Part shown: in pieces, positions 1 to 46,600 of the stretch
How the letters are laid out: each line of letters begins with the position of its first letter
Position numbering within the stretch: the first letter of the stretch is position 1
Assembly: GCA_903813345.2 (NCBI GenBank)
Contig: CAIIXF020000011.1
Coordinates: 36,366,166 to 36,430,165 of the forward strand
Direction of reading: 5' to 3'
Source: Owenia fusiformis
Lineage: Eukaryota > Annelida > Polychaeta > Sabellida > Oweniidae
Length of the DNA stretch: 64,000 bases
The notes under the pieces: model-generated
The model's input: the letters and a program-made list of their open reading frames with translations, nothing else
Told to the model about the DNA's origin: nothing
Database searches by the model: none
Made by a program: the position numbers and the translations under genes

Positions 1-30
1 AGTATTATAAACAGACTTACACCAGTAAAG
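1..30 (+). CDS. DPY19L3: DPY19L3-like exon 3' end (or an array copy of it)
   Basis: Reads S-I-I-N-R-L-T-P-V-K and then a gtgagt donor in phase 0, which fits directly onto the next exon (N-Y-F-E-P-V). The family has a similar YR.LP..K stretch just before its EPVYFY block. The following ~79-bp repeats carry the same bases with a Y in place of the N (IIYRLTPVK). So this could be the real exon end, or another copy with the true exon further left. The window starts inside it. Confidence 0.5.
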
Positions 31-671
31 GTGAGTGAAGGATACATTGATGGGATGTTAGTTTCTCAACATTTATCAAAGTATTATATACAGACTTACA
101 CCAGTAAAGGTGAGTAAGGATACATTGATGGGATGTTAGTTTCTCAACATTTATCAAAGTATTATATACAGACTTACACCAGTAAAGGTGAGTGAAGGAT
201 ACATTGATGGGATGTTAGTTTCTCAACATTTATCAAAGTATTATATACAGACTTACACCAGTAAAGGTGAGTGAAGGATACATTGATGGGATCAGTAAAG
301 GTGAGTGAAGGATACATTGATGGGATGTTAGTTTCTCAACATTTATCAAAGTATTATATACAGACTTACACCAGTAAAGGTGAGTGAAGGATACATTGAT
401 GGGATGTTAGTTTCTCAACATTTATCAAAGTATTATATACAGACTTACACCAGTAAAGGTGAGTGAAGGATACATTGATGGGATGTTAGTTTCTCAACAT
501 TTATCAAAGTATTATATACATACTTACACCAGTAAAGGTGAGTAAGGATACATTGATGGGATGTTAGTTTCTCAACATTTATCAAAGTATTATATACAGA
601 CTTACACCAGTAAAGGTGAGTGAAGGATACATTGATGGGATGTTAGTTTCTCAACATTTATCAAAGTATTA
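1..671 (+). repeat. ~79-bp tandem array of an exon end plus 5' splice site
   Basis: About eight copies plus one truncated copy (breakpoint near 292). Each unit carries ~30 bases of the DPY19L3 exon end (IIYRLTPVK), an intact gtgagt donor and about 49 bases of intron. Copies are nearly identical; two have a short deletion in gtgagtgaagg. The unit length is not a multiple of three, so using successive donors would shift the frame. Confidence 0.85.
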
Positions 672-1082
672 GGAATGCTGGTAGGACCTTTTCAGCTTCA
701 TCACTGCAACTGATCATATTTTATTCACTGTATTAGTTTAAACAGATATAAAATGACAAAGATATTAGGAAAATGGTGTTAGGGTTTCCAGTTTTTTTGA
801 CCACCCTATTATATACACTGTATAAGTTTAAACATATATGCTATAAAACCTGTATATCTGAACACCAATTTTAATCTGAACACCTCTCAATCTGAAAATA
901 CTGTTGGTCTTAGACTTCCATGTTAAAAAAATCAGTTGAAATCAGTGAAAACCTGCTAACCTGAGCAGTTGTTACCATACCCAGTAGTGTTTGGATGTGG
1001 CTTAAGATGAATGTCAATTTATATTAAAGGAAACTACATATAATTGAATGGTTTCTATAAATAAAATATCTTCTTGTTGCAG
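672..1082 (+). other. intron remainder, no feature seen
   Basis: AT-rich intron between the donor array and the exon at 1083. It ends in a good acceptor (tcttcttgttgcag). No repeat or coding signal was seen. Confidence 0.6.
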
Positions 1083-1228
1083 AACTATTTTGAGCCAGTC
1101 TATTTCTACATCAATACCATATTTGGTCTTCATGGGTTGCTTGTTGCTGCCATCTATGTGACATCCTGGGCACTAAGTGGTTCTTGGCTCAGTGGAGTTC
1201 TGACTGCATTGTTCTACATATTTAACAG
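1083..1228 (+). CDS. DPY19L3: DPY19L3 exon (NYFEPVYFYI...)
   Basis: 146 nt, 48 codons plus AG. Starts after ttgttgcag and ends TTT AAC AG|gtatga. Encodes NYFEPVYFYINTIFGLHG followed by a hydrophobic membrane segment with SWALSGSWLSG, ending YIFN plus the first two bases of R, completed by the G of the next exon. Both borders match the family's conserved block. Confidence 0.92.
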
Positions 1229-4200
1229 GTATGACATGACATTGGTTTTAAGATGACATTGGTTATAAGATGACACTTATGTAAGATGACACTGACTCTA
1301 GTCATTAAAGGACATTGTTTATGTTTTGAGTCACAAAAACCTACTAAGAGCTGCTGTGTTAAAAGCTGTTTTTAAAAAACAAATGTTAAGATTTTTACAT
1401 TTAGATAAGATATGTATGTTTTGATTGTAGTTATCTTTTGTAATCATTACACGAGGGTTCCACAGCATTCAATGCATACCAAAATATAATCTACCAATCT
1501 TTAAAATCTACTAAGTATTCACCTTTCCCCAAAGTCCAAAGTGTACTCATTTGACAGCTGCGCTGATTGGTTGATGAAAATAAATGACGTCAAAGCAGGG
1601 CACATTTCGCGCTTAAAGGGTTCCGATTAGCATCCCGTATAAAAACAATATGGCGGCTCCAGGCGAATCAACTGGATCAGTCCATTTTTAAGAAATAAGG
1701 GGAGTTCTGTAAAATCCAGTTTATTGAAATTGTCTTTGAGATAAAGTAATCCGTTTATAATGATTTTGAAAACGTTATCCAAAGAGTGATTGCGTTCAAA
1801 GAATACATGTACAACAGCCAATATAAATCCTTGTATTAGAAACCGGTTTTTCTTGCTTTGTTTCATTTGTAGGATATTTCATATGCCAAGCTGTGTGCTA
1901 TTACGTTATGGGGAAATTTAGATGCCAATTTTTCCTTATTGTACACAAATAGAAGATCCTGAAACTTCACCCATAAATATGGAATTGATTTGTCAAAATA
2001 AAAATCACCCTTTTATAAATGTGTGACGATCTATAATATACTTACGCTATATAACAGTTAGAGGTGTTGACACAACGACCTCGAACCTGTGAACCCTTGA
2101 GTATTATTCCGGGATCGGGCCTTTTATACTAAACGGTGAGCAACACCAGAAACGAGCGTTCGATTTGCTAAACGATATGCGTCACCCTTTAAACTTCAAT
2201 TACTATTAGATTGCCGAATGAGTGAAATAGATCTCATTATAAAATGATAACAAAACTAAGTGAAATATATTTTCTGACTATTTTGCCTTAAGCTGTGTCT
2301 TAAATACACCATCCGGTAAATCAAACCGTAGAAATAATTGTGATACAAGTGCTAGTCCACTTGCATTTTTCTCATCGGATTGCCCAAATAATTTGCGATT
2401 GGTCATGTATTTTTGCAATTTATATATTGAAGTAACTAATATTCATCATACTGTAGTAGTTTGCATTTTAATTGCAATTCTAAGCTTAATTACAGGCCCG
2501 TAGCCATAGGAGGGGGGGGGGGAGCGGCCACTCCTTCCGCTCACTAGCTTTTTCGGCCAGAAATTCTTTCAAAATCATGCAGTTTTTCACCATTCTGAGC
2601 ACTTTTTGCATGATTTTTGTCAAAACTATCAAAAAGGGTGGAATATGTTATTCCCTGATTTCTTAAAAAAACTTGTTATATTTATCATATTTGTTTTATG
2701 CTAGACACAACAAGGGTAGAATATGTTATACCCTGATTTCTTAGAAATACTTGTAATATATAATATACAGGGTGGGCCAAAAAATTTTGCAACCTTTTTA
2801 GAAGGCAAAAAAAGTATCATAACATTATGGTATTGACAGGAAATTTTTTTTACAGAAACTTAAGGATAGGCATATTTTACCATTCAAATACTTAAGCTAA
2901 TACTGACTTCAAATTTTTTTGTCAGATGTTTGAATATTAATGGTAAATTTTTCATTTGTCTGAGATTTACCATTTTTCCTAGAAAATCTGACTTTCTATG
3001 ATTTTATGTGATCAACAATAACACATTCATTATGTTTACTTAATCTGCTACAATCTTTGATAACTGTTTAACCAATGTCTAGTACAGGTTAATATCAGTA
3101 TCTAGTCACTATGGTAATATTGTTACACTGTATTAATTATTTATTAAACAAATGTTCTATGCATCCGCCTTTCACCTTCACAATCACATGGAGACGAGAA
3201 CTGAACTGGTCAATGGCGAGATCCAGCAGTTCTTGTGGTAGTCGTCTCCACTTATCCTGCAGAACTTCTTATAGTTGATCAATAATTTGTGGGGTATAAC
3301 CATTAACTACAATACATTGCTCCAGGTGCCCCCATGTGTGATAGTCCCAGGGGTTGGCATCTGGTGTATTGGGTGGCCATTTGACTCAGGACTAATCTTC
3401 TTCAAAAGGGACATCTTTCAAGAATGGGGGCTCTTTCAGCCCCAAGTGATTACATATTCCAGCAGGATAGCGCTCCTGACCATAGGCCAAAAGTCACTAT
3501 GGAATATCTGGAGCAAAATACCCCTTGATTCATTAGTCCTGATGAATAGCCGCCCAATACACCACTTAACAAAGATTGCAGCAGATTTAGTAATAAATGT
3601 TCTATCGATGATCACATAAAATTATGGAAAATCGGAAAATCTCGGACACATGAACAATTTACCATTAATATTCAAACATCTGAAAAAAAAATTGTAGTCA
3701 GTATTAGCTTAAGTATTTGAATGGTAAAATATGCCTATCCTTAAGTTTCTGTAAAAAAAATTTCATGTCAATACCATAATGTTATGATACTTTTTTATCA
3801 CACCATCGGTGGGATATAGTCGTCATACTGGTCGTGATCGTGGTCGTGATCGTGGTCGTGATCGTGATCGTCCCGCTTTTTGTCATCGCCGTTTAAGGAA
3901 AACTGCATATCAGATTTTCTCCAAATTCGCAGAGATGATAGAGCATATGAAGTACTAGAGCTGATTAACTTTTGGGTGGCCATCTTGTTTTCTGGCGGCC
4001 ATTTTGAAGGTTTTTCGAAAAATCTTGTCATCGCCATTTCAGGAAAACCGCTCATTGGATTTCCTTCAAATTTACACAAATGATAGAGGATATCAAGTAC
4101 TAGAGCTGATTAACTTTTGGGTGGCCATCTTGTTTTCTGGCAGCCATTTTGAAGATTTTTCGAAAAATCTTGTCATCGCCATTTCAGAAAATCCGCTCAT

Positions 4201-7200
4201 CGGATTTCCTTCAAATTTACACACATGATAGAGGATATCAAGTACTAGAGCTGATTAACTTTTGGGCGGCCATCTTGTTTTCTGGCAGCCGTTTTGAAGA
4301 TTTTTCGAAAAATCTTGTCATCGCCATTTCAGAAAATCTGCTCATCGGATTTCCTTCAAATTTACACACATGATAGAGGATATCAAGTACTAGAGCTGAT
4401 TAACTTTTGGGCGGCGATCTTGTTTTCGAGTGGCCATTTTGAAGGTTTTTCGAAAAATCTTGTCATCGCCATTTCAGGAAAACTGCTCATCGGATTTCCT
4501 TCAAATTCGCACAGATGATAGAGGATATCAAGTACTAGAGCTGATTAACTTTTGGGTGGCCATCTTGTTTTCTGGTGGCCATTTTTAAGGTTTTTCGAAA
4601 AATCTTGTCATTGCCATTTCAGGAAAACTGCTCATCGGATTTCCTGTACATGATAGGGGATATCAAGTTCTAGAACTTATTAAATTTTGGGTGGCCGTTT
4701 TGTTTTCTGGCGGCCATTTTGAAAGTTTTTCAATAAATCTTCTCATCGCCATTTCAAGAAAACCCCTCATCAAATTTGCTCCAAATTCCCACACATGATA
4801 GAGGATATCAAGAACTAGAGCTGATTAACTTTTGGGTTGCCATCTTGTTTTCTGGTGGCCATTTTGAAGGTTTTTTTTTGATAAATCTTGTCATCACCAT
4901 TTTAGAAAAAAACGCTTATTGGATTTCCTTCAAATTCGCACACATGATAGGGGATATCAAGTTCTACACCTATTTGATGGTGTGATCTCGTTCACGTCCT
5001 GTGCCTTGTTTGCATTCTAAAAAGGTTGCAAAATTTTTTGGCCCACCCTGTATATCATATTTGTTTTAAGCTAGACACAACAAGGTTGGAATTTGTTATA
5101 CTCTGATTTCTTAGAAATACTTGTCATATATATCATATTTGTTTTAGGGTGGAATATGTTATTCCCTGATTTCTTAGAAGTACTTGTTATATATAATATA
5201 TATCATATTTGTTTTAGGCTAGACACAACAAGGTTGGAATATGTTATACTCTGATTTCTTAGAAATACTGGTCATATATATCATATATATGTTATTCCCT
5301 GATTTCTTAGAAATACTTGTCATATATATCATATATATTTTAGGCTAGAGACAACAAGGGTAGAATAAGTTATACCCTGATTTCTTAGAAATACTTGTCA
5401 TATATATCATATATATGTTATTCCCTGATTTCTTAGAAGTACTTGTAATATATAATATATATCATATTTGTTTTAGGCTAGACACAACAAGGATGGAATA
5501 TGCTATACCTTGATTTCTTAGAAATACTTGTCATATATATCATATATATTTTAGGCTAGAGACAACAAGGGTAGAATATGTTATGCCCTGATTTCTTAGA
5601 AATACTTGTCATATATATCATATATATGTTATTCCCTGATTTCTTAGAAGTACTTGTAATATATAATATATATCATATTTGTTTTAGGCTAGACACAACA
5701 AGGGTGGAATATGCTATACCCTGATTTCTTAGAAATACTTGTAATATATATTATATTTGTTTTAGGCTAGACACAACAAGGTTGGAATATGCTATACCTG
5801 TATTTCTTAGAAATACTTGTCATATATATCATATTTGTTTTAGGGTGAAATATGTTATTCCCTGATTTCTTAGAAGTACTTGTTATATATAATATATATC
5901 ATATTTGTTTTAGGCTAGACACAACAAGGTTGGAATATGTTATACTCTGATTTCTTAGAAATACTTGTCATATATATCATATATATGTTATTCCCTGATT
6001 TCTTAGAAATACTTGTCATATATATCATATATATTTTAGGCTAGAGACAACAAGGGTAGAATATGTTATGCCCTGATTTCTTAGAAATACTTGTCATATA
6101 TATCATATATATGTTATTCCCTGATTTCTTAGAAGTACTTGTAATATATAATATATATCATATTTGTTTTAGGCTAGACACAACAAGGGTGGAATATGTT
6201 ATACTCTGATTTCTTAGAAATACTTGTGATATATATCATATTTGTTTTAGGCTAGATACAACAAGGGTGGAATATGTTATACTCTGATTTCTTAGAAATA
6301 CTTGTGATATATATCATATTTGTTTTAGGCTAGACTCAACAAGGGTGAAATATGTTATACTCTGATTTCTTAGAAAAACTTGTAATATATATCATATTTG
6401 TTTTAGGCTAGACAAAACAAGGGTGGAATATGTTATACCCTGATTTCTTAGAAATACTTGTCATATATATCATATTTGTTTTAGGCTAGATACTACAAGG
6501 GTGGAATATGTTATACCCTGATTTCTTAGAAATATTTGTCATATATATCATATATATGTTATTCCCTGATTTCTTAGAAATACTTGTCATATATATCATA
6601 TATATGTTATTCCCTGATTTCCTAGAAGTACTTGTAATATATAATATATATCATATTTGTTTTAGGCTAGACACAACAAGGGTGGAATATGTTATTCCCT
6701 GATTTCCTAGAAGTACTTGTAATATATAATATATATCATATTTGTTTTAGGCTAGACACAACAAGGGTGGAATATGTTATTCCCTGATTTCTTAGAAATA
6801 CTTGTCATATATATCATATTTGTTTTATGCTAGACACAACAAGGTTGGAATATGTCATTCCCTGATTTCTTAGAAAAACTTGTAATATATATCATATTTG
6901 TTTTAGGCTAGACACAACAGGGTGGAATATGCTTTACCTTGATTTCTTAGAAATACTTGTGATATATATCATATTTGTTTTAGGCAAGACACAACAAGGA
7001 TGGAATATGCTATACCTTGATTTCTAAGAAAAACTTGTAATATATATCATATTTGTTTTAGACTAGACACAACAAGGATGGAATATGTTATACCCTGATT
7101 TCTTAGAAATACTTGTGATATATATATCATATTTGTTTTAGGCTAGACACAACAAGGGTGGAATATGTTATACCCCTGAGGGAATGCTTCTCTCTTCCTT

Positions 7201-13200: not shown

Positions 13201-16200
13201 GCGCTCCTGAAATACATCAATAAACACACAAAGTGCTCCTGAAATACATCAATAAACACACAAAGTGCTCCTGAATACATCAATAAACACACAAAGTGCT
13301 CATAAATACATCAATAAACACTCAAAGTGCTCATAAATACATCAATAAACACACAAAGTACTCATGAATACATCAATAAACACACACAGTGCTCATGTGA
13401 TTTGTGCAATTGTATTTTTCAGGGATTTTGATACAAAATTGTACATCTGTAATGGAGCATTTGAGTTCATGGATAGCAGTATTCTGACACGTACTACTGA
13501 GAATGGTTTTATGTTCCCTCTTTATATATCTACTCATGTCATATTACTGGGAATGCTAGCAGTCACTGTATTACAGAAATACTGGTGAGGATATATTTTA
13601 ATTGTTTTACTACTGAGAATTGGTTTATGTTCCCTCTTTATATATCTACTCATGTCATATTACTGGGAATGCTAGCAGTCACTGTATTACAGAAATACTG
13701 GTGAGGATATATTTTAATTGTTTTACTACTGAGAATTGGTTTATGTTCCCTCTTTATATATCTACTCGTGTCATATTACTGGGAATGCTTGCAGTCACTG
13801 TATGGTCTTATGACTGAGATAAAGTACAAATGTCAAGCTCTTTATTTTGCTAGTTCAAAGAAAATATTAATTATTTTAATTAACCTAATCCAAGGACTGA
13901 AGAGAACACTCTATATTCATCAACTTCTGATCAATTGTAATGAGATGACTGTTGACCACTCATTGACCAATCAGAGTCTAGTGTTTCAACTCGAGTAATA
14001 ACAATGTGTCATTCCAGGTCTCCTGTCCAAGAAGGTAAAGAAGCAAAAGATGACAGTTTACTTTCTAACAGACCAGAGTTAGCATTCCATGCAAGTAAGT
14101 TCATGCATTCCATACAAGTAAGTTCATGCATTCCATACAAGTAAGTTCATGCATTCCATACAAGTAAGTTCATGCGGATTACTTACTCGTTATCAAAGTG
14201 TTTCAGTATGTTTAATCTTTATACTAAATAGTCATTATTTAACATTAAATATCTTAATTGCATTTCAGTTCAAATCGTGTTTTTTGCTGCTATGGGGATT
14301 ACTACTCAGCGAATGAAGTATCTCTGGACTCCTTATATGTGCATATTTGCAAGTATTGGGATCACTGACTACCATATATGGAGTTGCCTAATTAAAAAAC
14401 TGAACAAGTCAGAAATAGCTGTAAGTTGCCTTTCATGTAGAATTAGATGGCCACTATAATGCTGAAATATTGGACCAACTGAATTAGGGTGGGGGTGGGG
14501 CTTATATCCAATTAATGCTACCAATAATATGGACTTCAGCAATTTTGTTGAAATTTTAAATATGAATAACTAGAAGTGTATTACACTGCAGCCATTTCCA
14601 AAAAACGGTGGCTATAGCTGTTCAATGGGATTTGCTATGCCTTGGCGTTGCTGTTATCTAGTTCAGTTTGTTTCTTACATTGTAGATCCAGTTACTCCGG
14701 CACTTAACAGCAATATTGGTCATCTCTGCTGTGCTTTATAAGGTAGTGTATATATGTAATTCTTAAAACATTTGATGTACAGTGTACAAAACTGCTGAAT
14801 TCTCATAATTTTTAGAAGCTTGAATATCTGCTAATGGGTCTCTTTATACAACAGAACAGGTGCCATTCATTGAATTATACTTTACAAAAATAATTTTATC
14901 TCAATTTTAATTTTGGAATCAGTTTATCTTGATTACCAATTGGTGAAAACGTACTGCCACATTCATGCTTCTCTGCCCTCCTTAATATATAAGCTTTCTA
15001 TCATACTACTCTGCCTTCCTATATATATAAGCTTTCTATCTTGCTACTCTGCCTTCCTTGATATATAAGCTTTCTATCATACTTCTCTGCCCTCCTTAAT
15101 AAATAAGCTTTCTATCATACTACTCTGCCCTCCTTAATATATAAGCTTTCTATCATACTACTCTGCCCTCCTTAATAAATAAGCTTTCTATCATACTACT
15201 CTGCCCTCCTATATATATAAGCTTTCTATCATTCTTCTCTGCCTTCCTCGATATATAAGCTTTCTATCATACTTCTCTGCCCTCCTTAATATATAAGCTT
15301 TCTATCATACTACTCTGCCCTCCTTAATATATAAGCTTTCTATCATACTACTCTGCCCTCCTTAATATATAAGCTTTCAATCATACTACTCTGCCCTCCT
15401 TAATATATAAGCTTTCTATCATATTACTCTGCCCTCCTATATATATAAGCTTTCTATCATACTTCTCTGCCTTCCTTGATATATAAGCTTTCTATTATAC
15501 TACTCTGCCCTCCTTAATATATAAGCTTTCTATCATACTACTCTGCCCTCCTTAATATATAAGCTTTCTATCATACTACTCTGCCCTCCTTAATATATAA
15601 GTTTTCAATCATACTACTCTGCCCTCCTTAATATGTAAGCTTTCTATCATACTACTCTGCCTTCCTTGATATATAAGCTTTCTATCATACTTCTCTGCCC
15701 TCCTTAATATATAAGCTTTCTATCATACTACTCTGCCCTCCTTAATATATAAGCTTTCTATCATACTACTCTGCCCTCCTTAATATATAAGCTTTCTATC
15801 ATACTACTCTGCCCTCCTTAATATATAAGATTTCTATCATACTACTCTTCCCTCCTTAATATGTAAGCTTTCTATCATACTACTCTGCCTTCCTTGATAT
15901 ATAAGCTTTCTATCATACTTCTCTGCCCTCTTTAATATATAAGCTTTCTATTATACTACTCTGCCCTCCTTAATATGTAAGCTTTCTATCATACTTATCT
16001 GCCCTCCTTAATATATAAGCTTTCTATCATACTACTCTGCCCTCCTTAATATGTAAGCTTTCTATCATACTACTCTGCCCTCCTTAATATGTAAGCTTTC
16101 TATCATACTTCTCTGCCCTCATAAATATATAAGCTTTCTATCATACTACTCTGCCCTCCTTAATATATAAGCTTTCTATCATACTACTCTGCCCTCCTTA

Positions 16201-19200
16201 ATATGTAAGCTTTCTATCATACTACTCTGCCCTCCTTAATATATAAGCTTTCTATCATACTTCTCTGCCCTTCTTAAGATATAAGCTTTCTATCATACTT
16301 CTCTGCCCTCCTTAAGATATAAGCTTTCTATCATACTATTCTGCCCTCCTTAATATATAAGCTTTCTATTATACTACTCTGCCCTCCTTAATATATAAGC
16401 TTTCTATCCATAACTTGGTATTAATGACTTTCTTCCTTATTTTCAGTGCTTACCTCCTGTGCTAAAGGACTTGGAAGAGCTTAGGGAGTTCTATGACCCA
16501 GATACTGTAGAGCTTATGGATTGGATAAAGTAGGTGCAGATTACTGTTTGACTGTCACTTTATTTGATTTGATTTGAGTGGATTCTGTAAATTTGTCATT
16601 GTATTAATAAATACATACAATAAGAAAAAGAAGTTGTCCTGAAATAACCGAAATTTGTACATCTTGGCCTTAAACTCCCAATTTTCCAGGTTGATTTTTT
16701 CAAAAATTTAGATTCCTGTGTTGTATAAAAAAGGTTCCAGATTTCATTCCGGGTTTCATTCCGAGTTCAAATTTTATTCCAAATTCCATTTTTTGGGTTC
16801 AACACAAACAAAGGCCAACGCAAACCGACTAGCAAATAATCCAGTTGTACACATAATTTAAGAGTTGGGAATTAAACCACATTCATTTTAAATGATATAC
16901 ATTGTGGGCCAAAAAAAACAATTCCCAACATGAACAATTCATATGATACTGTATATGTTAAACCATGCCATGTATTATATACCATTTTAAAGATAAATCA
17001 TCTAACAATATAAAACCATCCAATTGAAAAACCTTTGTTTTCTTGTGGAGTTACAGGCTAAAATTGAAACCAGAGGTACCACAAGTAACCGAAAATCAAA
17101 AAATCAAACAGAACAGTAGGTTTTCTATTATATGGTGTCATATTGTTAGGAAATGATTTATCTTTTTTGGCCCACCCTATATATATATTTCAATCCATAT
17201 TATGTAAGTAAATAGGCTTCATGTATTTTTCAGTCATGTTCATTGAGTTTTGATATTTTGATAGGAATATTGTTACTAGTCACATTTTGAGACCTTCAGC
17301 TGACTAAAACCAAAAAGGAATGAAAAGTACCACTGAGAAAAGACAATTCTGGGCTGTAAAGAAACAAATCATGTTTTTTGTCTATTTTTCCAGATTTTTT
17401 GATTTTTTCCAGGCCACTAAAAAAATTCTCATTGTTTTTTGTAATTTTTTCTGAGTTAACAACTTTCTGTCCGGGTTGGTGGGTAAAATTCCGGGTAATC
17501 CAGATAAAATATCGGGCAGAGAGTTGAGGGCCAATTAACACCAAGATTTGATTAGGTTTTGGGCATGCTAGGTAAAGCACTTGGTGGCTATTTTGAGTTT
17601 TACAATTAAAAAGTATGACATTTATCACTGTGTATCTTGTTTATATATATGTGCATCCAGATAAGCTACTCCTGTATTGTATATGTGCATGTTCCAGGAA
17701 GTCCACTCCTAAATATGAAGTGTTCTGTATTGTATATGTGCATGTTCCAGGAAGGCCACTCCTAAATATGAAGTGTTCTGTATTGCATATGTGCATGTTC
17801 CAGGAAGGCCACTCCTAAATATGAAGTGTTCTGTATTGTATATGTGCATGTTCCAGGAAGTCCACTCCTAAATATGAAGTGTTCTGTATTGTATATGTGC
17901 ATGTTCCAGGAAGGCCACTCCTAAATATGAAGTGTTCTGTATTGCATATGTGCATGTTCCAGGAAGGCCACTCCTAAATATGAAGTGTTCTGTATTGTAT
18001 ATGTGCATGTTCCAGGAAGTCCACTCCTAAATATGAAGTGTTCTGTATTGTATATGTGCATGTTCCAGGAAGGCCACTCCTAAATATGAAGTGTTCTGTA
18101 TTGCATATGTGCATGTTCCAGGAAGGCCACTCCTAAATATGAAGTGTTCTGTATTGTATATGTGCATGTTCCAGGAAGGCCACTCCTAAATATGAAGTGT
18201 TCTGTATTGCATATGTGCATGTTCCAGGAAGGCCACTCCAAAATATGAAGTGTTCTGTATTGCATATGTGCATGTTCCAGGAAGGCCACTCCTAAATATG
18301 AAGTGTTCTGTATTGTATATGTGCATGTTCCAGGAAGGCCACTCCTAAATATGAAGTGTTCTGTATTGTATATGTGCATGTTCCAGGAAGGCCACTCCTA
18401 AATATGAAGTGTTCTGTATTGCATATGTGCATGTTCCAGGAAGGCCACTCCTAAATATGAAGTGTTCTGTATGGCATATGTGCATGTTCCAGGAAGGCCA
18501 CTCCTAAATATGAAGTGTTCTGTATTGCATATGTGCATGTTCCAGGAAGGCCACTCCTAAATATGAAGTGTTCTGTATGGCATATGTGCATGTTCCAGGA
18601 AGGCCACTCCTAAATATGAAGTGTTCTGTATTGCATATGTGCATGTTCCAGGAAGGCCACTCCAAAATATGAAGTGTTCTGTATTGCATATGTGCATGTT
18701 CCAGGAAGGCCACTCCTAAATATGAAGTGTTCTGTATTGCATATGTGCATGTTCCAGGAAGGCCACTCCTAAATATGAAGTGTTCTGTATTGTATATGTG
18801 CATGTTCCAGGAAGGCCACTCCTAAATATGAAGTGTTCTGTATTGCATATGTGCATGTTCCAGGAAGGTCACTCCTAAATATGAAGTGTTCTGTATTGTA
18901 TATGTGCATGTTCCAGGAAGGCCACTCCTAAATATGAAGTGTTCTGTATTGCATATGTGCATGTTCCAGGAAGGCCACTCCTAAATATGAAGTGTTCTGT
19001 ATTGTATATGTGCATGTTCCAGGAAGGCCACTCCTAAATATGAAGTGTTCTGTATTGCATATGTGCATGTTCCAGGAAGGCCACTCCAAAATATGAAGTG
19101 TTCTGTATTGCATATGTGCATGTTCCAGGAAGGCCACTCCTAAATATGAAGTGTTCTGTATTGCATATGTGCATGTTCCAGGAAGGCCACTCCTAAATAT

Positions 19201-22200
19201 GAAGTGTTCTGTATTGCATATGTGCATGTTCCAGGAAGGCCACTCCTAAATATGAAGTGTTCTGTATTGCATATGTGCATGTTCCAGGAAGGCCACTCCA
19301 AAATATGAAGTGTTGTGTATTGCATATGTGCATGTTCCAGGAAGGCCACTCCTAAATATGAAGTGTTCTGTATTGCATATGTGCATGTTCCAGGAAGGCC
19401 ACTCCTAAATATGAAGTGTTCTGTATTGCATATGTGCATGTTCCAGGAAGGCCACTCCTAAATATGAAGTGTTCTGTATTGCATATGTGCATGTTCCAGG
19501 AAGGCCACTCCTAAATATGAAGTGTTCTGTATTGTATATGTGCATGATCCAGGAAGGCCACTCCTAAATATGAAGTGTTCTGTATTGTATATGTGCATGT
19601 TCCAGGAAGGCCACTTCTAAATATGAAGTGTTCTGTATTGTATATGTGCATGTTCCAGGAAGGCCACTCCAAAATATGAAGTGTTCTGTATTGCATATGT
19701 GCATGTTCCAGGAAGGCCACTCCTAAATATGAAGTGTTCTGTATTGCATATGTGCATGTTCCAGGAAGGCCACTCCAAAATATGAAGTGTTCTGTATTGC
19801 ATATGTGCATGTTCCAGGAAGGCCACTCCTAAATATGAAGTGTTCTGTATTGCATATGTGCATGTTCCAGGAAGGCCACTCCTAAATATGAAGTGTTCTG
19901 TATTGCATATGTGCATGTTCCAGGAAGGCCGCTCCTAAATATGAAGTGTTCTGTATTGTATATGTGCATGTTCCAGGAAGGCCACTCCTAAATATGAAGT
20001 GTTCTGTATTGCATATGTGCATGTTCCAGGAAGGCCACTCCAAAATATGAAGTGTTCTGTATTGCATATGTGCATGTTCCAGGAAGGCCACTCCTAAATA
20101 TGAAGTGTTCTGTATTGCATATGTGCATGTTCCAGGAAGGCCACTCCTAAATATGAAGTGTTCTGTATTGTATATGTGCATGTTCCAGGAAGGCCACTCC
20201 AAAATATGAAGTGTTCTGTATTGCATATGTGCATGTTCCAGGAAGGCCACTCCTAAATATGAAGTGTTCTGTATTGTATATGTGCATGATCCAGGAAGGC
20301 CACTCCTAAATATGAAGTGTTCTGTATTGTATATGTGCATGTTCCAGGAAGGCCACTTCTAAATATGAAGTGTTCTGTATTGTATATGTGCATGTTCCAG
20401 GAAGGCCACTCCAAAATATGAAGTGTTCTGTATTGCATATGTGCATGTTCCAGGAAGGCCACTCCTAAATATGAAGTGTTCTGTATTGCATATGTGCATG
20501 TTCCAGGAAGGCCACTCCAAAATATGAAGTGTTCTGTATTGCATATGTGCATGTTCCAGGAAGGCCACTCCTAAATATGAAGTGTTCTGTATTGCATATG
20601 TGCATGTTCCAGGAAGGCCGCTCCTAAATATGAAGTGTTCTGTATTGTATATGTGCATGTTCCAGGAAGGCCACTCCTAAATATGAAGTGTTCTGTATTG
20701 CATATGTGCATGTTCCAGGAAGGCCACTCCAAAATATGAAGTGTTCTGTATTGCATATGTGCATGTTCCAGGAAGGCCACTCCTAAATATGAAGTGTTCT
20801 GTATTGCATATGTGCATGTTCCAGGAAGGCCACTCCTAAATATGAAGTGTTCTGTATTGTATATGTGCATGTTCCAGGAAGGCCACTCCAAAATATGAAG
20901 TGTTCTGTATTGCATATGTGCATGTTCCAGGAAGGCCACTCCTAAATATGAAGTGTTCTGTATTGTATATGTGCATGTTCCAGGAAGGCCACTCCTAAAT
21001 ATGAAGTGTTCTGTATTGCATATGTGCATGTTCCAGGAAGGCCACTCCTAAATATGAAGTGTTCTGTATTGCATATGTGCATGTTCCAGGAAGGCCACTC
21101 CAAAATATGAAGTGTTCTGTATTGCATATGTGCATGTTCCAGGAAGGCCACTCCTAAATATGAAGTGTTCTGTATTGCATATGTGCATGTTCCAGGAAGG
21201 CCACTTCTTAATATGAAGTGTTCTGTATTGTATATGTGCATGTTCCAGGAAGGCCACTCCTAAATATGAAGTGTTCTGTATTGCATATGTGCATGTTCCA
21301 GGAAGGCCACTCCTAAATATGAAGTGTTCTGTATTGTATATGTGCATGTTCCAGGAAGGCCACTCCTAAATATGAAGTGTTCTGTATTGCATATGTGTAT
21401 GTTCCAGGAAGGCCACTCCAAAATATGAAGTGTTCTGTATTGCATATGTGCATGTTCCAGGAAGGCCACTCCTAAATATGAAGTGTTCTGTATTGCATAT
21501 GTGCATGTTCCAGGAAGGCCACTCCTAAATATGAAGTGTTCTGTATTGTATATGTGCATGTTCCAGGAAGGCCACTCCTAAATATGAAGTGTTCTGTATT
21601 GCATATGTGCATGTTCCAGGAAGGTCACTCCTAAATATGAAGTGTTCTGTATTGCATATGTGCATGTTCCAGGAAGGCCACTCCTAAATATGAAGTGTTC
21701 TGTATTGTATATGTGCATGTTCCAGGAAGGCCACTCCTAAATATGAAGTGTTCTGTATTGCATATGTGCATGTTCCAGGAAGGCCACTCCTAAATATGAA
21801 GTGTTCTGTATTGTATATGTGCATGTTCCAGGAAGGCCACTCCTAAATATGAAGTGATCTGTATTGTATATGTGCATGTTCCAGGAAGGCCACTCCTAAA
21901 TATGAAGTGTTCTGTATTGCATATGTGCATGTTCCAGGAAGGCCACTCCTAAATATGAAGTGTTCTGTATTGTATATGTGCATGTTTTAGGAAGTCCACT
22001 CCTAAATATGAAGTGTTCTGTATTGTATATGTGCATGTTCCAGGAAGGCCACTCCTAAATATGAAGTGTTCTGTATTGCATATGTGCATGTTACAGGAAG
22101 GCCACACCTAAATATGAAGTGTTCTGTATTGTATATGTGCATGTTCCAGGAAGTCCACTCCTAAATATGAAGTGTTCTGTATTGTATATGTGCATGTTCC

Positions 22201-25669: not shown

Positions 25670-26195
25670 CAGTTATAAAAAAACTCCACCCATAAATTAT
25701 AATAAAAAACTCCACCTATGAATGATTATTAGAAATTCCACCTATGAACAATTATACGAAACTCCACCTATGAACAATTATGAGAAACACCACCTATGAA
25801 CAATTATGAGAAACACCACCTATGAACAATTATGGGAAACACCACTATGAATGAAAAACTGAAATTTAATAAAAAGCTCCACAATTCTCCATAATGGAAC
25901 AATTGAACAATGCACTAATTTCTCACTAAGCAATGCAGTGATGTCCTACTAAGCATGCACATTAATATGCCACTAAGCAATGCATTAATTTGCCACTAAG
26001 CAATGCAGTGATGTCCTTCTAGGTAGTGCATTGATATGCCACTAAGCAATGCATCGTGCATTAATTTGCCACTAAGCAATGCATTATTGTGCCACAAAGC
26101 AATGCATTAATGTGCCACTAAGCAATGGATTATGCATTGATATGCCACTAAGCAGTGCACTTATGTGCCACTAAGCAATGCATTAATATACAATT
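25670..26195 (+). repeat. two short tandem arrays just past the stop codon
   Basis: 25675-25855: about seven copies of 'aaactccacctatgaacaat'-type units (~25 bp). 25920-26190: about eleven copies of 'gccactaagcaatgcatta'-type units (~22 bp). Both lie in the probable 3' untranslated region of DPY19L3. Several AATAAA-like hexamers occur here, but which is used cannot be told. Confidence 0.8.
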
Positions 26196-28055
26196 CATGA
26201 CCAAAACAACAACATAAAACAAAAGGAATTCTAATGTGAAAAATGTTGATGGTATGATTTTTGATATTTTGTTAACTTTGATAAGGAAATACAAAAATTG
26301 CTCTACATGTGTGCTATCACATGAAAGTCATAAGATAAATCCTGTTATCTGCATAATCAACTCAAGGGTCAAGCATCAGCAAGGAATCCATGGAGCCAAT
26401 CCTCATTTGATCAAATGCAATAGCCTATCCAGAAAAGGAATTATTTTTAAAAATTGTTAGATTTTATCATTTACAAAATATTTATCCAACTGTTAATTAT
26501 TATCCTCCAGTTTATAATGTTATGTCTATTTCTTCCGTGAGTACTGTGATATTAATATGATGTCCTCGATGTTATGGCATTTATTCAGGAATATTAGAAA
26601 TTCTACTACAACATGTGTGAAGTCTGTATTTGTGAACATCTCTCTCTTAAGTAAAGTGAACACCTCAGAATGTGAACACTTAACAATGAGAAAATGTAAA
26701 TTATTAAACAGGGGGACATTAACAGGAACTTCGTAAAGTTACGATTTCATGAATCAATTGTTGTAACCATGGACTATAATGATGTCACAGTTAGAGAACA
26801 ATGGACTTTACGAATTCATAACTCTACAAAGTTTCTGTTAATGTCCCCCTGAATCTTTTGAATTTGCATTTGATTAACATTTTAAATCAGTTAAATATTT
26901 TATATTTATTATATGTTGTTAGACTAGTTGGCCATAGTGAGCCAGCTGGACATTATTTGAAAGAATTTTCCATGAAACACAGAATTTATTTTATTTATAT
27001 AATAATAATATTTAAATAATAAATATGTCATATAGCCTGTAGATTTGGGTAGGTGGGCTTGTTTGAAATATGCTTCTCAAGAATCTCAACTAGAACTCCT
27101 AACTTACAATAATGAAGTTAGTTTGCTTTTGTCCTGGAGAATGGAGAATTATGCAATAAATGGCAGAATGGCTTGGCATTATTTTGGCCAATGTTAAAAC
27201 TCGCCAAGAAGTGCGGGTAATGAAAATTAAGAATTATATGTAGCTTAAATTCTTCACCTTTTGAACATATTTTATTTGTGTATAACCATCTTATTCAGTA
27301 TATTGTGCTTCCATTAAGGCCAAATCATATTAAATTTGTTTTTACTGTCAGTCATGTATTGAACAAAATATTTAGAATTTTATGTATTTTATTTTATTTA
27401 TAAGGGACCAGGTCAATATTTTAATGTTGATCCAATATACAAGTCATCCCCCTGAAGTACATTTACTTGTGTTAATTTGATTTTTTCAAATTTAATGTTG
27501 TAAGATGCATCCAAGAACAATCCCCTGAAAAGATAATTAACTTGGTTCATGGGTATACATTATGATATCAACATTGTCCCTTGACTGTTTAACAGTCGTT
27601 TATGTAGTATGAATTAGATATAATATGAATTGTGTTGGACACTTGACACTTTATATAATAACATTAATGGTGTTGGACACTTGACACTTTAATTATTCAA
27701 CTTATGTAGGGATTACAAAATGCAGCTGTCTTATCTAGATTATTGAGGAGAGGAATTGTGATGAACAAAACATGGCACAGAGTTTGTCCACAGTCCAATG
27801 TTTGTAAATAAGTTATTTTAGAAGGGGAAGGTCTATTCATTCTAAATCCATTTAGAAAAACATATTTCAAGAGAAACCTAATGAAAGAATGTATTTTTTT
27901 TAAATGTTGTTTGTATTCCTTGTTTAGAATTTAACAGCTTCTATGTTGTTTGAAATGTTATAAGGTGTTTTAAATACTTAATTATGTCAATAAATGAATA
28001 TGTTATGAATAAGTATTGTGTTAATTTTCTACCACTAAAACTATTACATTATGTA
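26196..28055 (+). other. intergenic/3' region with one MITE, otherwise featureless
   Basis: Apart from the element at 26710-26850, no gene or clear repeat. A direct repeat of 'gtgttggacacttgacactt' occurs at 27632-27690. Confidence 0.5.
26710..26850. mobile_element. 141-bp palindromic MITE
   Basis: AGGGGGACATTAACAG at the left pairs with CTGTTAATGTCCCCCT at the right, with further pairing inward (AACTTCGTAAAGTTACGA against ACTCTACAAAGTTT). No coding capacity; a target duplication is not obvious. Confidence 0.8.
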
Positions 28056-28059
28056 GTTT

Positions 28060-28555
28060 GGATTTTCAAATGTTGTCATTTATTTCCCCGAATGTTGCCA
28101 TTTATTCTCAGAATGTTTATTCCCCGAATGTTGCCATTTATTCGCTGAATGTTGCCATTTATTCCCTGAATTTTGCCATTTATTCACAGAATGTTTATTC
28201 CCCGAATATTGCCATTTATTCACAGAATGTTTATTCCCTGAATGTTGCCATTTATTCGCTGAATGTTGCCATTTATTCCCTGAATTTTGCCATTTATTCC
28301 CTGAATGTTGCCATTTATTCACAGGATGTTTATTTCCCAAATGTTGCCATTTATTCCCTGAATGTTGCCATTTATTCCCTGAATGTTGCCATTTATTCCC
28401 TGAATGTTGCCATTTATTCCCTGAATGTTACCATTTATTCCTGAATGTTGCCATTTATTCGCTGAATGTTGCCATTTATTCGCTGAATGTTGCCATTTAT
28501 TCCCTGAAAGTTGCCATTTATTCCCTGAATGTTGCCATTTATTCCCCGATTGTTG
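28060..28555 (+). repeat. ~21-bp minisatellite
   Basis: About 24 copies of 'gaatgttgccatttattccc', with variants ttcgct and ttcacag. Because the unit is 21 bases the array is open in several frames, giving spurious repetitive proteins on both strands. It lies between the 3' ends of DPY19L3 and CHMP1. Confidence 0.92.
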
Positions 28556-28559
28556 AACC

Positions 28560-29774: not shown

Positions 29775-32700
29775 CTGAAATAAGATAAATTAATAAAAGG
29801 TTTATAATAGTCTAAGCTCTTTATATCTTTTGTTCGAATCTCTGCAGAAATTAACCCATTGTGATTTTATGAATATATTGGTTGTTTCAAATGAAAAATC
29901 CACCCGAGCAAGTTCATTGGTCACTTTTTATCACCCCACACCGAGGGGGAAACAGGGGGCAAAGCAAAAAAATACTCTTCGTATGCCACCATTAAATAAG
30001 TTTATACAATCAGCAGATATAACGAAAATTGTTTTCAATGTTTTTTAATTAATATTTCCTTGCAAAATCAATATTTTAATCACTTAATGTCCAGTGATGC
30101 TCAATGTTGGTAACATGGATTTTGGAGATATTTTATCAAAATTCTAAGATTTTTCATATCTATTGATGAAAAATTCAAGAATAGAGCTCTGATATCACTG
30201 TATAAGTTCAATGAATTTCAAATCGTAAGAATAATTAATAAGTGAGAAAGAATTTTTTATCCCACTCAGCTAAGAAGCAAGATGGAGGGGGGGGGGTAGT
30301 CCAGGATCTTCACCTTTTTTGTTTGAATCACTGCAGAAATTAAGCCATTAATATTTCATGAATGTTTTGATTTAAAATGAAAAATCCACCTCTTGTATGA
30401 GACTGTCCACTTCACCCTGAGGTGCAGTCAGAGTTGATGTGTTGCTCACAGTAGATTCACTTACCCGTGTTCATCAGCCACTTCATGCATTAGACTATCC
30501 ACTTCACCTTGTGGTGCAGTCAGAGTTGATGTGTTACTCACAGTAGATTCACTTACCCGTGTTCATCAGCCACTTCATGCATTAGACTATCCACTTCACC
30601 TTGTGGTGCAGTCAGAGTTGATGTGTTGCTCATGGTAGATTCCATGACCTGGGATTGCACATCTAAGTTCTCAAATTGCTGTTCGAATCTGTCCATAAGT
30701 TGTGACACCTACAAGGAAATATATTAATTAGAAAATGTAGGGAGGGGTTTATCAGGATTTTAAAACAACTGAATATGGATCTGTTTCTGTTTTTTTTTCT
30801 AAAATATGTAGAAAATCAGTTTTATTTGCTCCAATCGAAATATAATATTCATGAATCTGTATGAATGCCACAATGTAATGTTAACCATCTACTCTACCCT
30901 TGATTAAATTGGTATACATGTATATTAAAAGACATACAATAGAGATATATTAGAATATCCACCTACTTAAGCATTTGGATGACTAATTATTAGTTTCAAT
31001 ATTCCACAATTTGAGAAATTTTTAAGAAATCTCTAAGTAAAAGCAAATTCCTGCTCTAGGCAGCCTTTTTGGATTTTCTGAGTCACAAATCAGAAAAACA
31101 ATACCATAATTGTGATCGTCTTAAGAATTCCTTTAATTTGAGTATTATATAGCCATATTTAAGGGAGGCATCAAAAGTTCAATGTAGGACTGAAACTCAA
31201 TAAATCTAGTAAGGGGGGGGGGGTCAAAGCCATATCAGTTTGCTATCCGACAGATTTCAACATTTCAAATTTTTTGCAATTTTGACTCGGAACATCCCCC
31301 TAAGCAGGTATCCAGAATCCCAATTGAACTGAATCACATGATCTAATTATGCGCAACGACTTATACATGATTTCTGTGGAAGTGTTGCGACAGCCAATCA
31401 GATTGCGGCTTCTCAATCGGGGAAATGCTAACTGCTTATCGCAGGGGGTAAAAAGAAAGAATATATTCTGGATTTTGAAGCCCTGTGATCAGAGGATGGA
31501 CTCGGAATGCCCTGGAATGTTTTAAAAACGACTGATTAACAAAATTTCAAACAATAATATTGGTTTAAAATGAAAAACTTCGGATTTTTGCGAAAAATTC
31601 CTACCATTTCTAAAGCAGCAGCCATCTAACAGTAATGGAGAATGAACAAATTATTCAAATAGTTAGCCATTACATCTGTTTAGCTCTTGATATTTTAGAT
31701 TAACCCCCCCCCCCAAAGGCCTCTAACATTTTTCACCATCCATATTATGGACCAAATCTATTGTATTTCCACTATTTCCAGTTTGACATGTTTTGTATAT
31801 TGCCGACAATTTTGAAAAATGTAGGCAATAATATTGTATTGTATTTTTATATATTATATATGGAATAAATGAGAAATGAAAGAAAAAAATAATGAAATCA
31901 AAAGGGATATGAAGATACCCAATGTTAGTCAAAGGTGCATCTTCTCATGTTAAGTCAATAACGCAATCTTAATATTCTCAGGAGAAAGATAGTAATTTGT
32001 ATTCTAAATTCCTAAATACCCAAATTTTGTAGCATAATGGGGTCACTATCACTCTCTCAGCCTTTTTTGGCTCAAACTCTTAAACATTCTCCAAAATAAA
32101 CTGATCTGACATTAAATAAGTTATTGTAAACCTAAACATAATCAATTTTGGTGATAGGGGTATTTGTCATTTTGATATTGATTTTCATAAAATTAATAAA
32201 TGACCCCTTGGCGATAAAAGGATTTATATATAATTCACTAAAAATTTGAATGGAGGTCAGATTCTTAGAGCTACCCTTTCAGCTTTCCAATGATGTGAAC
32301 CTTAGTGCAGATGTGGTCATTTATATCACCCGAGTTTGCTTTACCAGTACTCTTAATATTACTAGTTGGATCGAAAAAATGAACAAGGCACAGGGATGGC
32401 CGCCAAAAAGTTAATCAGCTCTAGAACATTCTAACCATGTAACATGTGTAAAAATCTGAAGTACTCTGTCAAATTGTTTTCCTGGCATTGCGATGACAAG
32501 AAGATTGATACGCTGCCACACACCAAGCTGACGACATTATCATACTTTTTTTAGGTATGATGAAAATACATTCACTCACTGTTTTTAAAGGGTTCAAAAG
32601 CACCAATTTCACAGTGAAAAGTATTGTGTCCCTTTGAAATATTGGTTTCTAAGCTAGCACAGAAACAATTAGAGGATATGATACAAAATAGATATTACCC

Positions 32701-41601: not shown

Positions 41602-41609
41602 CTCATGGA

Positions 41610-41905
41610 CCAATTTAGGCCTGACATCCCATGTATAAATGTGATTGTATGTGGGGCCTAGAGATGTTCATATAGGCCTGACATCCCATGTATAAATGTG
41701 ATTTTATGTGGGGCCTAGAGATCTTCATATAGGCCTGACATCCCATGTATAAATGTGATTTTATGTGGGGCCAAGAGATCTTCATATAGGCCTGACATCC
41801 CATGTATAAATGTGATTTTATGTGGGGCCAAGAGATCTTCATATAGGCCTGACATCCCATGTATAAATGTGATTTTATGTGGGGCCAAGAGATCTTAATA
41901 TATGA
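41610..41905 (+). repeat. 57-bp tandem repeat, about five copies
   Basis: Unit 'aggcctgacatcccatgtat' + 'aaatgtgattttatgtgggg' + 'ccaagagatcttcatat'. Being 57 bases it stays in frame and makes a spurious minus-strand repeat peptide. It abuts the MITE to its left. Confidence 0.9.
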
Positions 41906-42968
41906 CTCAACATTTCAAATGAATATTTTAATTTGAAATTACTCCAAGTCTCATATTCTAAGGTGACTTGACCCTGTATTCCAGGTTAATCATATAATTA
42001 ATATTAAGACAGGTGAACCACTCCTATAAAACTCCACCACTACCATCCAATCTAATAGATCCTGATACCATACTCCTGGTAACTTTTGATGCACCCAACT
42101 ATTGCATTTTGGGTCAGTTTGTAGGAATTCAATCTGATATGGATATAATAAGCCAAAATATGTCTTTCTTCAGTCTTCTTTCTTGTTTCAAGAATTTTTG
42201 AAGCTGAACAAATAAGTTAAACATGCAAATATTACCAGGAATAGATATATTACCATGATACAATCATTGAGGGATTTTCCACTTATTCAAACAACTCAGC
42301 GTTGATGGTGTCCTAAAAGTAGAAGTGGGTATACCCAATATCTATGTGGATTGCTTGTAGCCTATCCCAAGCTATAGATTAAAGTATAGGCCACACATAT
42401 ACATCCTATATATATATATATATATATACATACATATATGTTCATGTATTCATTGATAAGAAAAATACTGCAATTTTCCAATAATTTCAGTTTGCGTACA
42501 TCATGCATGGGTATGTAGCCTATCTCCTAAATTCTTTCCTGTAGGGTTTCTTATGTTCCTCTCTTAAGAACAAAGTTTCCTGTCTGATACATATTTTCAC
42601 TTATCATTCCCACATTGTTGCGTGTTCATATACATGCTTATATATCCATGCATGTAGCCTAGTAATGCAATTTATTGGTTATTTTAATAAACAAGTAGTT
42701 TCAAGTAGTTCTATATTATGTGTTTCCTACTATATGTAGTTCCCAGTCTTTAGTTCTGTGTGTTTATGATACATCTGGAATCAGAAATGAAAACAGTGTT
42801 AACAGTTACAAGTGAACCAGTGCAATCCAGAACATATATGGGATTTGAAAATGCAGTAGCAGTAATCGCCCTAGAATTACACTTAATGGCTGTTATATCA
42901 AGTTTAGACCATGAATTGAACAATGACTGTGAAAAAGTCACTCCACCTTTAGTCAATTACTCAGATGC
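41906..42968. other. non-coding spacer
   Basis: No gene recognised. An (AT)n run lies near 42411-42440. Opposed 68-72 codon frames at 42750-42978 have no known domain. Confidence 0.4.
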
Positions 42969-43340
42969 AAGTAGCTAGTTACCAGTTTCGCCGCCAGGTG
43001 GCTGATTTGGGGGAAATAACATGGCAGGGTATTACAAAGTTCCCTTTAACTTGAATATTCATCAGTTTTAGTGGTTTACTAAATCATATTACCCTTGTGT
43101 ATCTTATAGTTATACATCTTAAAATATGTCCAGTAAAGGAAATTATTATCTTCCTAACACAAGATATTTCAATTATTGTGATCTTACAACATGGGGTCTA
43201 TGGGGAATCTTCCCGACCTAGAAGTGACATTTTCAAAGAAAATTAAATTTTGAAAGTTGATATACTTCTCAAAACCACATTTCTAGATGTAATTTTACAT
43301 GTAGATTCCAAATATGACATCAGTTTGACTGAATTTTGAA
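42969..43340 (+). repeat. dispersed ~365-bp repeat, copy 2
   Basis: Same family and orientation as 22626-22990: GTAGCTAGTTACCAGT start, 'agttccctttaacttgaata', 'ggtctatggggaatctt', 'tttgactgaa'. It has a ~35-base insertion after the start. Confidence 0.8.
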
Positions 43341-43618
43341 TTTCTAATGATGAAAATCAAGATTATTTCTTCTCGCATCTAGTCTATTGTCTTTTGCATG
43401 AATGAAACTGAAAATGATTTCTATTTGACCACTTTAATAGTTATCTGATGCAACTCAATAGCCATAACATGAGAATATTGTACTTCAATTTGTTTCATAT
43501 CATATATATATGAAGGGTTTATATATTCATGTTACAGCAGTCATTTTGCTGTATATAACAATTTTTTCAAAGCAAATTGATTAGAAGAGGGTATAGAATA
43601 TAAATATATACGTACAAC

Positions 43619-43687
43619 TGGCAGCTGTTTCATTGAACCTCTTCTGTATCTGGTCATGGTTGAACTTCAAGAATGCCTCATACTGTT
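43619..43687 (-). CDS. AKIRIN: akirin exon ([15 protein letters not shown]...)
   Basis: Acceptor gttttacag|AA; encodes [23 protein letters not shown]. The 3' edge is uncertain: CCA|gttgta (43619) would leave phase for S-Y-V-S in a last exon; TAC|gtatat a few bases on is the alternative. Unspliced reading would add about ten residues to a stop near 43584. Its 5' part is repeated upstream in the intron. Confidence 0.9.
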
Positions 43688-46600
43688 CTGTAAAACAAAA
43701 CACGACACAATCAATTCACTTTCAATTGAAACATGTAATGTACATCGCAAAGAATGGGTCATGGTTGAACTTCAAGAATGCCTCATACAGTTCTGTTAAA
43801 CAAGACATGACACAACCAATCCACTTTCAATTGAACCATTTAATGTACATCGCAAAGAATGGGTCATGGTTGAACTTCAAGAATGACCCATACAGTTCTG
43901 TATAACAAAACACGACACAATCAATCCACTTTCAATTGAAACATGTAATGTACATCGCAAAGAATGGGTCATGGTTGAACTTCAAGAATGCCTCCTACAG
44001 TTCTGTAAAACAAAACACGACACAATCAATCTACTTTCAATTGAAACATGTAATGTACATCGCAAAGAATGGGTCATGGTTGAACTTCAAGAATGCCTCA
44101 TACAGTTCTGTTAAACAAAACATGACACAACCAATCCACTTTCAATTGAAACATGTAATATACATCGCAAAGAATGGGCCATGGTTGAACTTTAAGAATG
44201 CCTCATACAGTTCTATATAACAAAACACGACACAATCAATCCACTTTCAATTGAAACATGTAATGTACATCACAAAGAATGGGTCATCGTTGAACTTCAA
44301 GAATGCCTCATACAGTTCTGTAAAACAAAATATGAAAATAATCAATCAACTTTCATTTGAAACATGTAAATGTACATCGCAAAGAATGGGCCATGGTTGA
44401 ACTTCAAGAATGCCTCATACAGTTCTGTAAAACAAAATATGAAAATAATCAATCAACTTTCATTTGAAACATGTAAATGTACATCGCAAAGAATGGGTCA
44501 TGGTTGAACTTCAAGAATGCCTTCACCTGAGTATTTAGATTTGCTTTACCTGAGTATTTAGATTTGCTTCACCTATGTCATACCTGCCAACCTACCGTAT
44601 TTTTACGGGAATCTACTGTAAATTTTTCGTTTTTCCGTAAAAAAAAACCATTTTTCCCCGTAAAAACGCCCGTAAAAAAATCTACCGTATTTATTCGTAA
44701 TCTACCGTAAATTTTCTTTTTAAAAAACTCGTTTATTCCATGAGAACGGTCGTAAAATCTACCGTAAATTTTTGAAAATCTACCGTAAATTTTCGAAAAT
44801 CTGCCATATTTCTGCTAAAATCAACAGTATTTTTGTTCAAACTACCGTAAAATTTCCCGTTATTGTTATTGGGAAATGCTGAAAATTGAAGTCTTCCTGT
44901 ACTGTCCCTGTAATATTCCTTCACCAACCCGAATATAAATAGGTATCGGCAGGTCTGTGGTTATCAGGTTATTGCGCATTTATCTAAGTAAGCTTGCGTG
45001 TAATCAGTCCAAACACCAACTACTACTAGCTAGAAGGAATTCTTTCTGCCATGATTTTTATTGTAGTTAACACAGATCTCTATTCCGAATGCAACAAAAA
45101 TATAATTTTAGTTGCGCTTCATCTAAATAAATGAATGGAAATGCGTATGCCTATTTAGCGTATGAAATATGCGTAGTTTGATTTGTTATGATCAGTAATG
45201 AATGCCACATATACATTATACATAGTTTAATCAATTTCTTTACAGAACGATAAAATGTTGTATTTTTCATCAGAACACATTATCAGTAACAAATACATAA
45301 TAAAAAAATAAAGCATTGAGTTCTGGTTTATTATAAAAGTATTGTGATATCCGAATCTGAACGATGTCTCAGGGGAAAGGTTTCAGCAAATGCTCATAAC
45401 AGATTATTTTTGAAAGACAATTTATCTGTACTTATTTTCTATTTGTGCCAGACAAACACGAGATATGAATCTTGTGTTCGTATTTTGAATCAATCTAGAT
45501 TTACTGTAAAAGAGTTGTATATGTACATTTTGCTGAAACATTAAAATCCAAAGTTGCTGTCTGTCCATTGTAGGCATGGTAAATGAAGAATAAAAAGTGT
45601 TTAGTCTCTATTTATTCTTGAAAATAGTATATCTATTTTTCCTTGAAAATAATAGTTTCGTATAATTCTCAGGTGGTAGTTCTGCTTTACAAACTGTAAT
45701 TATCAAAAGCACTCTTGACTTGCAGTAAAATATGTATTCACAATAACAACAACAATATGACCACGTAAACATTGTATTAATATAGAAAACCGCATTGTAT
45801 AAAGGTTTAACTACCGCATTTTTCAAAATCTACAGAAAAATACCGCATTTTGACAAATCTTCCGCAAAAGTAACAGTTTTTCAAAAAATTACCGTAAAAA
45901 CTACCGCAATTTTCAAAATTTACCGCAAAACTACAGTTTTTTCAAAAAACTACCGCATTTTTTAAAATCTACCGTAAAACTACCACATTTTTTCTAAATC
46001 TTCCGCAAAACTACCGGTTTTTCAAAAAACTACCGTAAAAACTACCACATTTTTCAGAATCTACCGTAAAACTACCGCATTTTTCAAAATTTCTCGCAAA
46101 ACTACCGGTTTTTCAAAAAACTACCGTAAAAACTACCGCATTTTTCAAAATTTACCGTAAAACTACCGCATTTTTCAGAATCTTTCGCAAAACTACCGGT
46201 TTTTCAAAAAACTACAGTAAAAACTACCGCATTTTTAAAAATCTACCGTAAAACTACCGCATTTTTTCTAAATCTTCCGCAAAACTACCGCTTTTTTCAA
46301 ATTTCTACCGCAAAATTACACTTTTTTCAAAAATCTACCCCAAACCTCTGAAACTACAGTATTTTTTTTAAATATACCGCAAAAACTAACGTTTTTTTAA
46401 AAACTCCCTCAAAAACTACCGTTTTTTTGTAAAACTCCCTGTAAATCTACCGCAAAAACTACCGCAAGTTTGTTGAAAAATACCGCAAAAACTACCGTAT
46501 TTTGAAAAAATCCCCCGCAAAAATACAGCAATTTTAAAAAAATCTACCGCAAAATTTTGGTCTTAGGTTGGCAGGTATGTATGTATTTAGATTTGTTTCA

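Follow-up and report, generated by a model that had tools for sequence, protein, structure and literature searches.

Why should one stretch of DNA hold eight tandem arrays in three genes, each built of units that straddle a splice junction of the gene in which it sits? The stretch, hereafter the window (64,000 nucleotides, C11:36366166-36430165 of the 498-Mb assembly of 525 contigs from which all loci described here were taken), carries such arrays in a DPY19-like, a CHMP1-like and an akirin-like gene. Tandem arrays were located by running Tandem Repeats Finder (TRF) on the window and then by reading the sequence directly, and the eight arrays that a first-pass annotation had reported, with units drawn from their own genes' junctions, were all found to be present near the positions given there. 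They are probably "mirages", i.e. the outcome of a local tandem duplication which favours exon edges and which is hidden since splicing uses the copy on the exon side.

Homology and reading frame were used to place the exon edges in the DPY19-like gene, and in all window arrays the copy that keeps the frame is the one joined to the remaining exon. The array at 1-671 starts about 190 bases upstream of the window, and its donor in use, CAGTAAAG/GTGAGT (here and below the slash marks the splice site), lies about 160 bases upstream of window base 1. For the acceptor array at 2636-7175, rows were returned by TRF only from 5154 on, and the copies at 2636-2757 were recognised by eye; 29 copies were found in 5040-7176, 22 of them spanning the site and 20 of these 22 keeping the AG. 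The AG was kept in 88/88 extra copies of the acceptor array at 17672-22390. According to the annotation, the surplus copies are invariably found towards the intron. This is forced by the reading frame: when a junction lies within the duplicated stretch, only the donor or acceptor nearest to the exon leaves the message intact. The position of the copies is therefore no separate evidence.

Because the window was selected for its arrays, independent genes were the fairer test of whether junctions are preferred. The families CCT/TCP-1, Sec1, adaptin, myosin and tRNA synthetase were chosen without knowledge of their arrays and located by Pfam searches of the genome. Most of the genes sampled had their matched exons in a span of about 13 kb or less; a 24-kb CCT gene and three long-intron tRNA-synthetase genes were added. 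The CCT pieces on C12 and C222 were excluded, as were copies that matched as a single long frame. Of the 29 independent gene regions retrieved, 26 entered the analysis, the regions A_C5, A_C11 and S_C10 giving no intron with both ends set. Exons were defined by Pfam matches, supplemented in the CCT and myosin sets by family models built on those matches.

For the null, the founder unit was placed uniformly over all positions touching an intron, and wholly exonic placements were forbidden. Placements crossing a junction were cost-free, so that hiding by splicing was already built in, and intron length was measured with each array collapsed to one unit. Several settings were tried; in the final ones, units of 20-200 bp were counted and at least 8 exonic bases were needed to call a junction array.

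In the independent set, 15 of 35 arrays span a junction (127 introns, 26 gene regions) with 4.64 expected (P=1.4e-6). Hits on exon edges, or their retention, thus exceed about threefold what uniform duplication combined with hiding would give. The excess was also found after exclusion of the richest gene (11/23 junction arrays, 3.78 expected, P=1.3e-4) and with a threshold of 3 exonic bases instead of 8 (18/35, 5.27 expected, P=2e-8), and other settings gave the same direction (11/36, 3.85 expected, P=9.6e-5; 14/45, 5.40 expected, P=4.2e-5). The other 20 of the 35 arrays fall short of the 8-base threshold and are classed as ordinary intronic minisatellites; of these, 3 reach a junction with a smaller exonic overlap. 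At least one junction array was found in 11/26 of the independent gene regions. The share of affected exons, put at roughly a third by the annotation, reflects the richness of the window: per site, junction arrays occupy 15/127 introns (15/254 junctions) in the independent regions.

The 15 independent junction arrays are divided between donors (8) and acceptors (7). The exonic share of their units was from 0.23 to 0.89 with a mean of 0.65, against 0.50 expected (P=0.005), and chance matches at the exon end may inflate it by a few bases; with the window arrays included, the value was 0.60 over 19 arrays, some units of which were set too long. From this variation it follows that the breakpoint is not fixed at the splice site, and the lean is into the exon. 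Unit length is a multiple of three in 3/13 arrays, i.e. without frame preference. Hiding by splicing agrees with the frame. Among the arrays listed, the repeated sequence is an exon edge of the gene that hosts it and varies between genes.

It is unlikely that these figures reflect neutral survival, i.e. uniform tandem duplication in which the junction cases are merely those that splicing hides. The excess in the independent introns, with or without the richest gene, argues against it, and so does the exonic lean, while the equal standing of donor and acceptor sides and the variable break positions agree with it. Several results also weigh against a duplication favouring exon edges. Neutral survival was not rejected for the myosin set alone (2/7, 0.71 expected, P=0.15) or for the tRNA synthetase set alone (2/4, 1.10 expected, P=0.30), and the excess stems mostly from one of the three gene sets, namely CCT/adaptin/Sec1 (11/24, 2.83 expected, P=2.4e-6). 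The window's DPY19-like gene gave 6 junction-spanning rows among 20 TRF rows (3.07 expected, P=0.06); TRF splits two of its junction arrays into four rows each, and only when the rows of one array were joined by hand was the null rejected there (6/14 arrays, 2.15 expected, P=0.008). Splice sites were predicted by homology, scored automatically and then completed manually, in part while the arrays were visible. A preference for longer introns, which could be a prediction of exon definition (9/45 introns of at least 400 bp vs 4/74 shorter ones with a junction array, Fisher P=0.03), faded once the tRNA-synthetase set (set C) had joined (Fisher P=0.087, rank test P=0.07). Finally, better survival at exon edges is compatible with the excess as well. 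The null forbidding coding disruption, which the annotation had asked to be compared, was beaten in the independent genes, and in the window gene its rejection depends on the joining of rows. Of the two explanations offered in the annotation, a hotspot or survival of hidden duplications, both seem to be needed: hiding fits the frame, yet 15 junction arrays were observed where 4.6 were expected.

Retention is the form that better survival would take. Junction arrays would then persist, or stay detectable, for longer, whether owing to coding selection keeping one copy constant or to decoys low in intron sequence being the best tolerated, and both the excess and the exonic lean would arise without any bias of duplication. 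We give this explanation a rather low probability: in arrays of 20-89 copies the constraint acts on a single copy, and the gain in detectability is, by estimate and not by computation, well under threefold. With a duplication biased toward exon edges, the excess would more plausibly reflect a raised local rate of duplication at these edges than better survival there.

A process directed at the splice site itself, such as a nick at the boundary of the nascent transcript or the edge of an R-loop, had been suggested in the annotation and would begin the duplication at the junction. It would produce a junction excess. It is nevertheless improbable, since the offset is not fixed, the exonic share running from 23% to 89% and leaning exonic in the 15 arrays. 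Base composition was considered as a cause and rejected: exon edges are richer in guanine plus cytosine (GC; 0.425 vs 0.340), and in purely intronic arrays the unit does not exceed its own intron in GC content (18 arrays, P=0.37). Tandem alternative exons were rejected likewise, as by the called splice sites the units hold one site and a partial exon, and 10/13 units are not multiples of three.

That the arrays are artefacts of assembly is very improbable. The longest of them measure about 5 kb, which could favour an artefact; against one, most of the longer arrays have internal variants, arrays occur in genes on several contigs, one has a transposon nested in it, and a comparable lancelet structure had two haplotypes with 6 and 3 units, according to PMC3087553. 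A mobile element or introner carrying splice sites can be set aside almost entirely, for although the units do contain splice sites, they are gene-specific edges of their hosts, no identical unit was found at junctions of unrelated genes among the arrays listed, and the one array region used for a DNA search of the genome (24640-25140, very common words skipped) matched its own locus only, without a second haplotype of it in the assembly.

The decoy sites were examined in 23 arrays, i.e. all 8 from the window plus 15 more; this set excludes the 154-bp array of L003, the 86-bp array of L012 and two arrays of a DPY19 paralogue on C7. The GT or AG was kept in 385/390 site-spanning copies. Neither decay nor protection of the decoys was clearly detected in these arrays, 6 variant copies being found at GT/AG vs 15.9 for random pairs elsewhere in the unit (P=0.10). 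The tRNA-synthetase gene of region Y_C11 (locus L037, near C11:11015988) has its frame-keeping acceptor, TTTCAAG/G, beside decoys of TTTCTAG/G; the AG is present in 51/51 extra copies, and the 45 with the exact surrounding letters read TAG. The frame-keeping acceptor looks like a weaker site than its decoys.

The following course of events is proposed for a mirage. A stretch of about 20-160 bp across an exon-intron junction would be duplicated in tandem and in place, such small local duplications being biased toward exon edges. Those inside exons would presumably be mostly lost. Those reaching into the intron would be hidden, the exon-side splice site (the first donor or the last acceptor) staying in use and the protein remaining unchanged, and the surplus copies would turn into intron sequence. 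The junction duplications may then expand as minisatellites. From the reading frame we infer that splicing takes the exon-side copy, and the choice of site is most likely made by exon definition. A bolder version can be offered only tentatively: exon edges may be an intrinsic hot zone for tandem duplication that pumps exon DNA into introns, and the spliceosome may ignore dozens of perfect decoys, once against the usual ranking of sites (AAG over TAG).

A structure of this type is already described in lancelets. In PMC3087553, mirages are minisatellite-like copies of an exon-intron boundary in Adh3 and in the globins BflGb6 and BflGb9; they lie at 5' or 3' boundaries, AG or GT is present in many but not all of the copies, and they are reported there as not disturbing splicing. 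Further lancelet cases, in troponin C, and similar repeats in PGBD5 appear in PMC3902484. The arrays of this study are alike in that tandem copies each span one boundary (the 8 window arrays and the 15 in independent introns) and in that both donor and acceptor boundaries are involved, with GT/AG kept as given above. They differ in their setting in an annelid-like genome, in copy numbers of up to 89, in their presence in 11/26 independent gene regions and in having been tested against a null. The literature found names mirages for lancelets only, subscription journals being thinly covered, and the present genome is a probable second lineage with mirages. That it is an annelid rather than a lancelet is suggested by the erythrocruorin-linker family, regarded as annelid-specific, which scores above its cut-off at three places. 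New as well are the size of the arrays, their prevalence in genes that were not chosen for arrays and the approximately threefold excess over the null.

Three other systems may be compared. Tandem genomic duplication of exon segments with AGGT, a route of intron gain discussed in PMC3087553, is similar in that duplication interacts with splice sites; it differs in creating a new intron inside an exon, whereas here an existing intron grows and its junctions are kept. Ordinary intronic minisatellites share the unit size and the expansion and hold no exon edge. Introners place one sequence in many genes, unlike the gene-specific units found here.

If the pattern holds genome-wide, the arrays would be natural experiments on the choice of splice sites, a site being repeated up to 89 times with one copy correct for the protein, and RNA could tell whether the choice follows exon definition, transcription order or site strength. 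They would also open to measurement one way in which introns grow and new splice sites arise, and the lancelet mirage would be no oddity of lancelets.

Table 1. Junction-spanning arrays of the window and the element nested in one of them (window positions)
Feature	Position	Strand	Unit and copies	Splice site and remarks
DPY19-like donor array	1-671	+	79-bp unit; 9 extra copies found	GT in all extra copies
DPY19-like acceptor array	~2636-7175	+	unit ~78 bp	real acceptor 7142; split by the element at 2758-5060
DPY19-like donor array	13492-13803	+	116-bp unit, 2.7 copies	real donor 13585; 93 exonic bases in array
DPY19-like donor array	14082-14175	+	23-bp unit, 4.1 copies	real donor 14095; 13 exonic bases
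DPY19-like acceptor array	17672-22390	+	53-bp unit, 89 copies, 97% matches	real acceptor 22362
DPY19-like donor array	24701-25138	+	109-bp unit (~102 exonic), 4 copies	real donor 24803
CHMP1-like donor array	30386-30642	-	92-bp unit, 2.8 copies	real donor near 30556/30557
akirin-like acceptor array	43652-44522	-	105-bp unit, 8.3 copies	real acceptor 43687/43688
Nested element with 55-nt terminal inverted repeats	2758-5060	.	2.3 kb	inside acceptor array 2636-7175; not part of the mirage

The first acceptor array had been annotated as a single one (2636-7141), which does not hold, as the nested element sits within it. The inverted ends of this element are 95% complementary, and it holds a 145-bp tandem repeat (3880-4966) resembling one at the edge of locus L019. 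Past the stop codon of the DPY19-like gene, three more arrays lie at 25673-28555, perhaps in the 3' untranslated region. Open frames on both strands at 49531-53631 resemble what we take to be decayed reverse transcriptases of the long interspersed nuclear element type.

By a Pfam Dpy19 search of the genome, a second Dpy19 gene with repeated partial exons was found on C7. Two arrays are present in it, with units of 86 bp (9 copies) and 56 bp (3.5 copies), each at an acceptor by frame reading. These arrays sit at other junction sides than those of the window gene, so the events look independent of the latter's.

Some arrays of the fetched regions were not entered in the final count. Junction-like arrays in introns not defined at both ends were those of S_C10 (53 bp), VPS33 (91 bp) and M_C4b (64 bp, recognised by eye at the edge of the fetched piece). 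Uncounted arrays without an exon edge included those of A_C10 (96 bp), A_C11 (53 bp), S_C10 (145 bp), M_C1 (66 bp), M_C12b (51 bp), Y_C5 (41 and 135 bp) and Y_C1 (136 bp). Units of more than 200 bp or less than 20 bp fell outside the count, an example of the former being a junction array of 260 bp in M_C4b, and the second block of the 53-bp array of CCT2 was scored as intronic.

Three minor observations were made in the sampled families. In a myosin gene at C9:37986009-37994334, one exon region (model positions about 18-84) was matched at twelve separate places, possibly alternative exons. CCT exons past model position 177 map to C222, a small contig, and the ones preceding 181 to C12:35255176; C222 may be a missing piece of the C12 CCT gene. 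The first called intron of the CCT gene in region R_C8 (locus L012) is an apparent GC-AG intron (ATG/GCAAGT).

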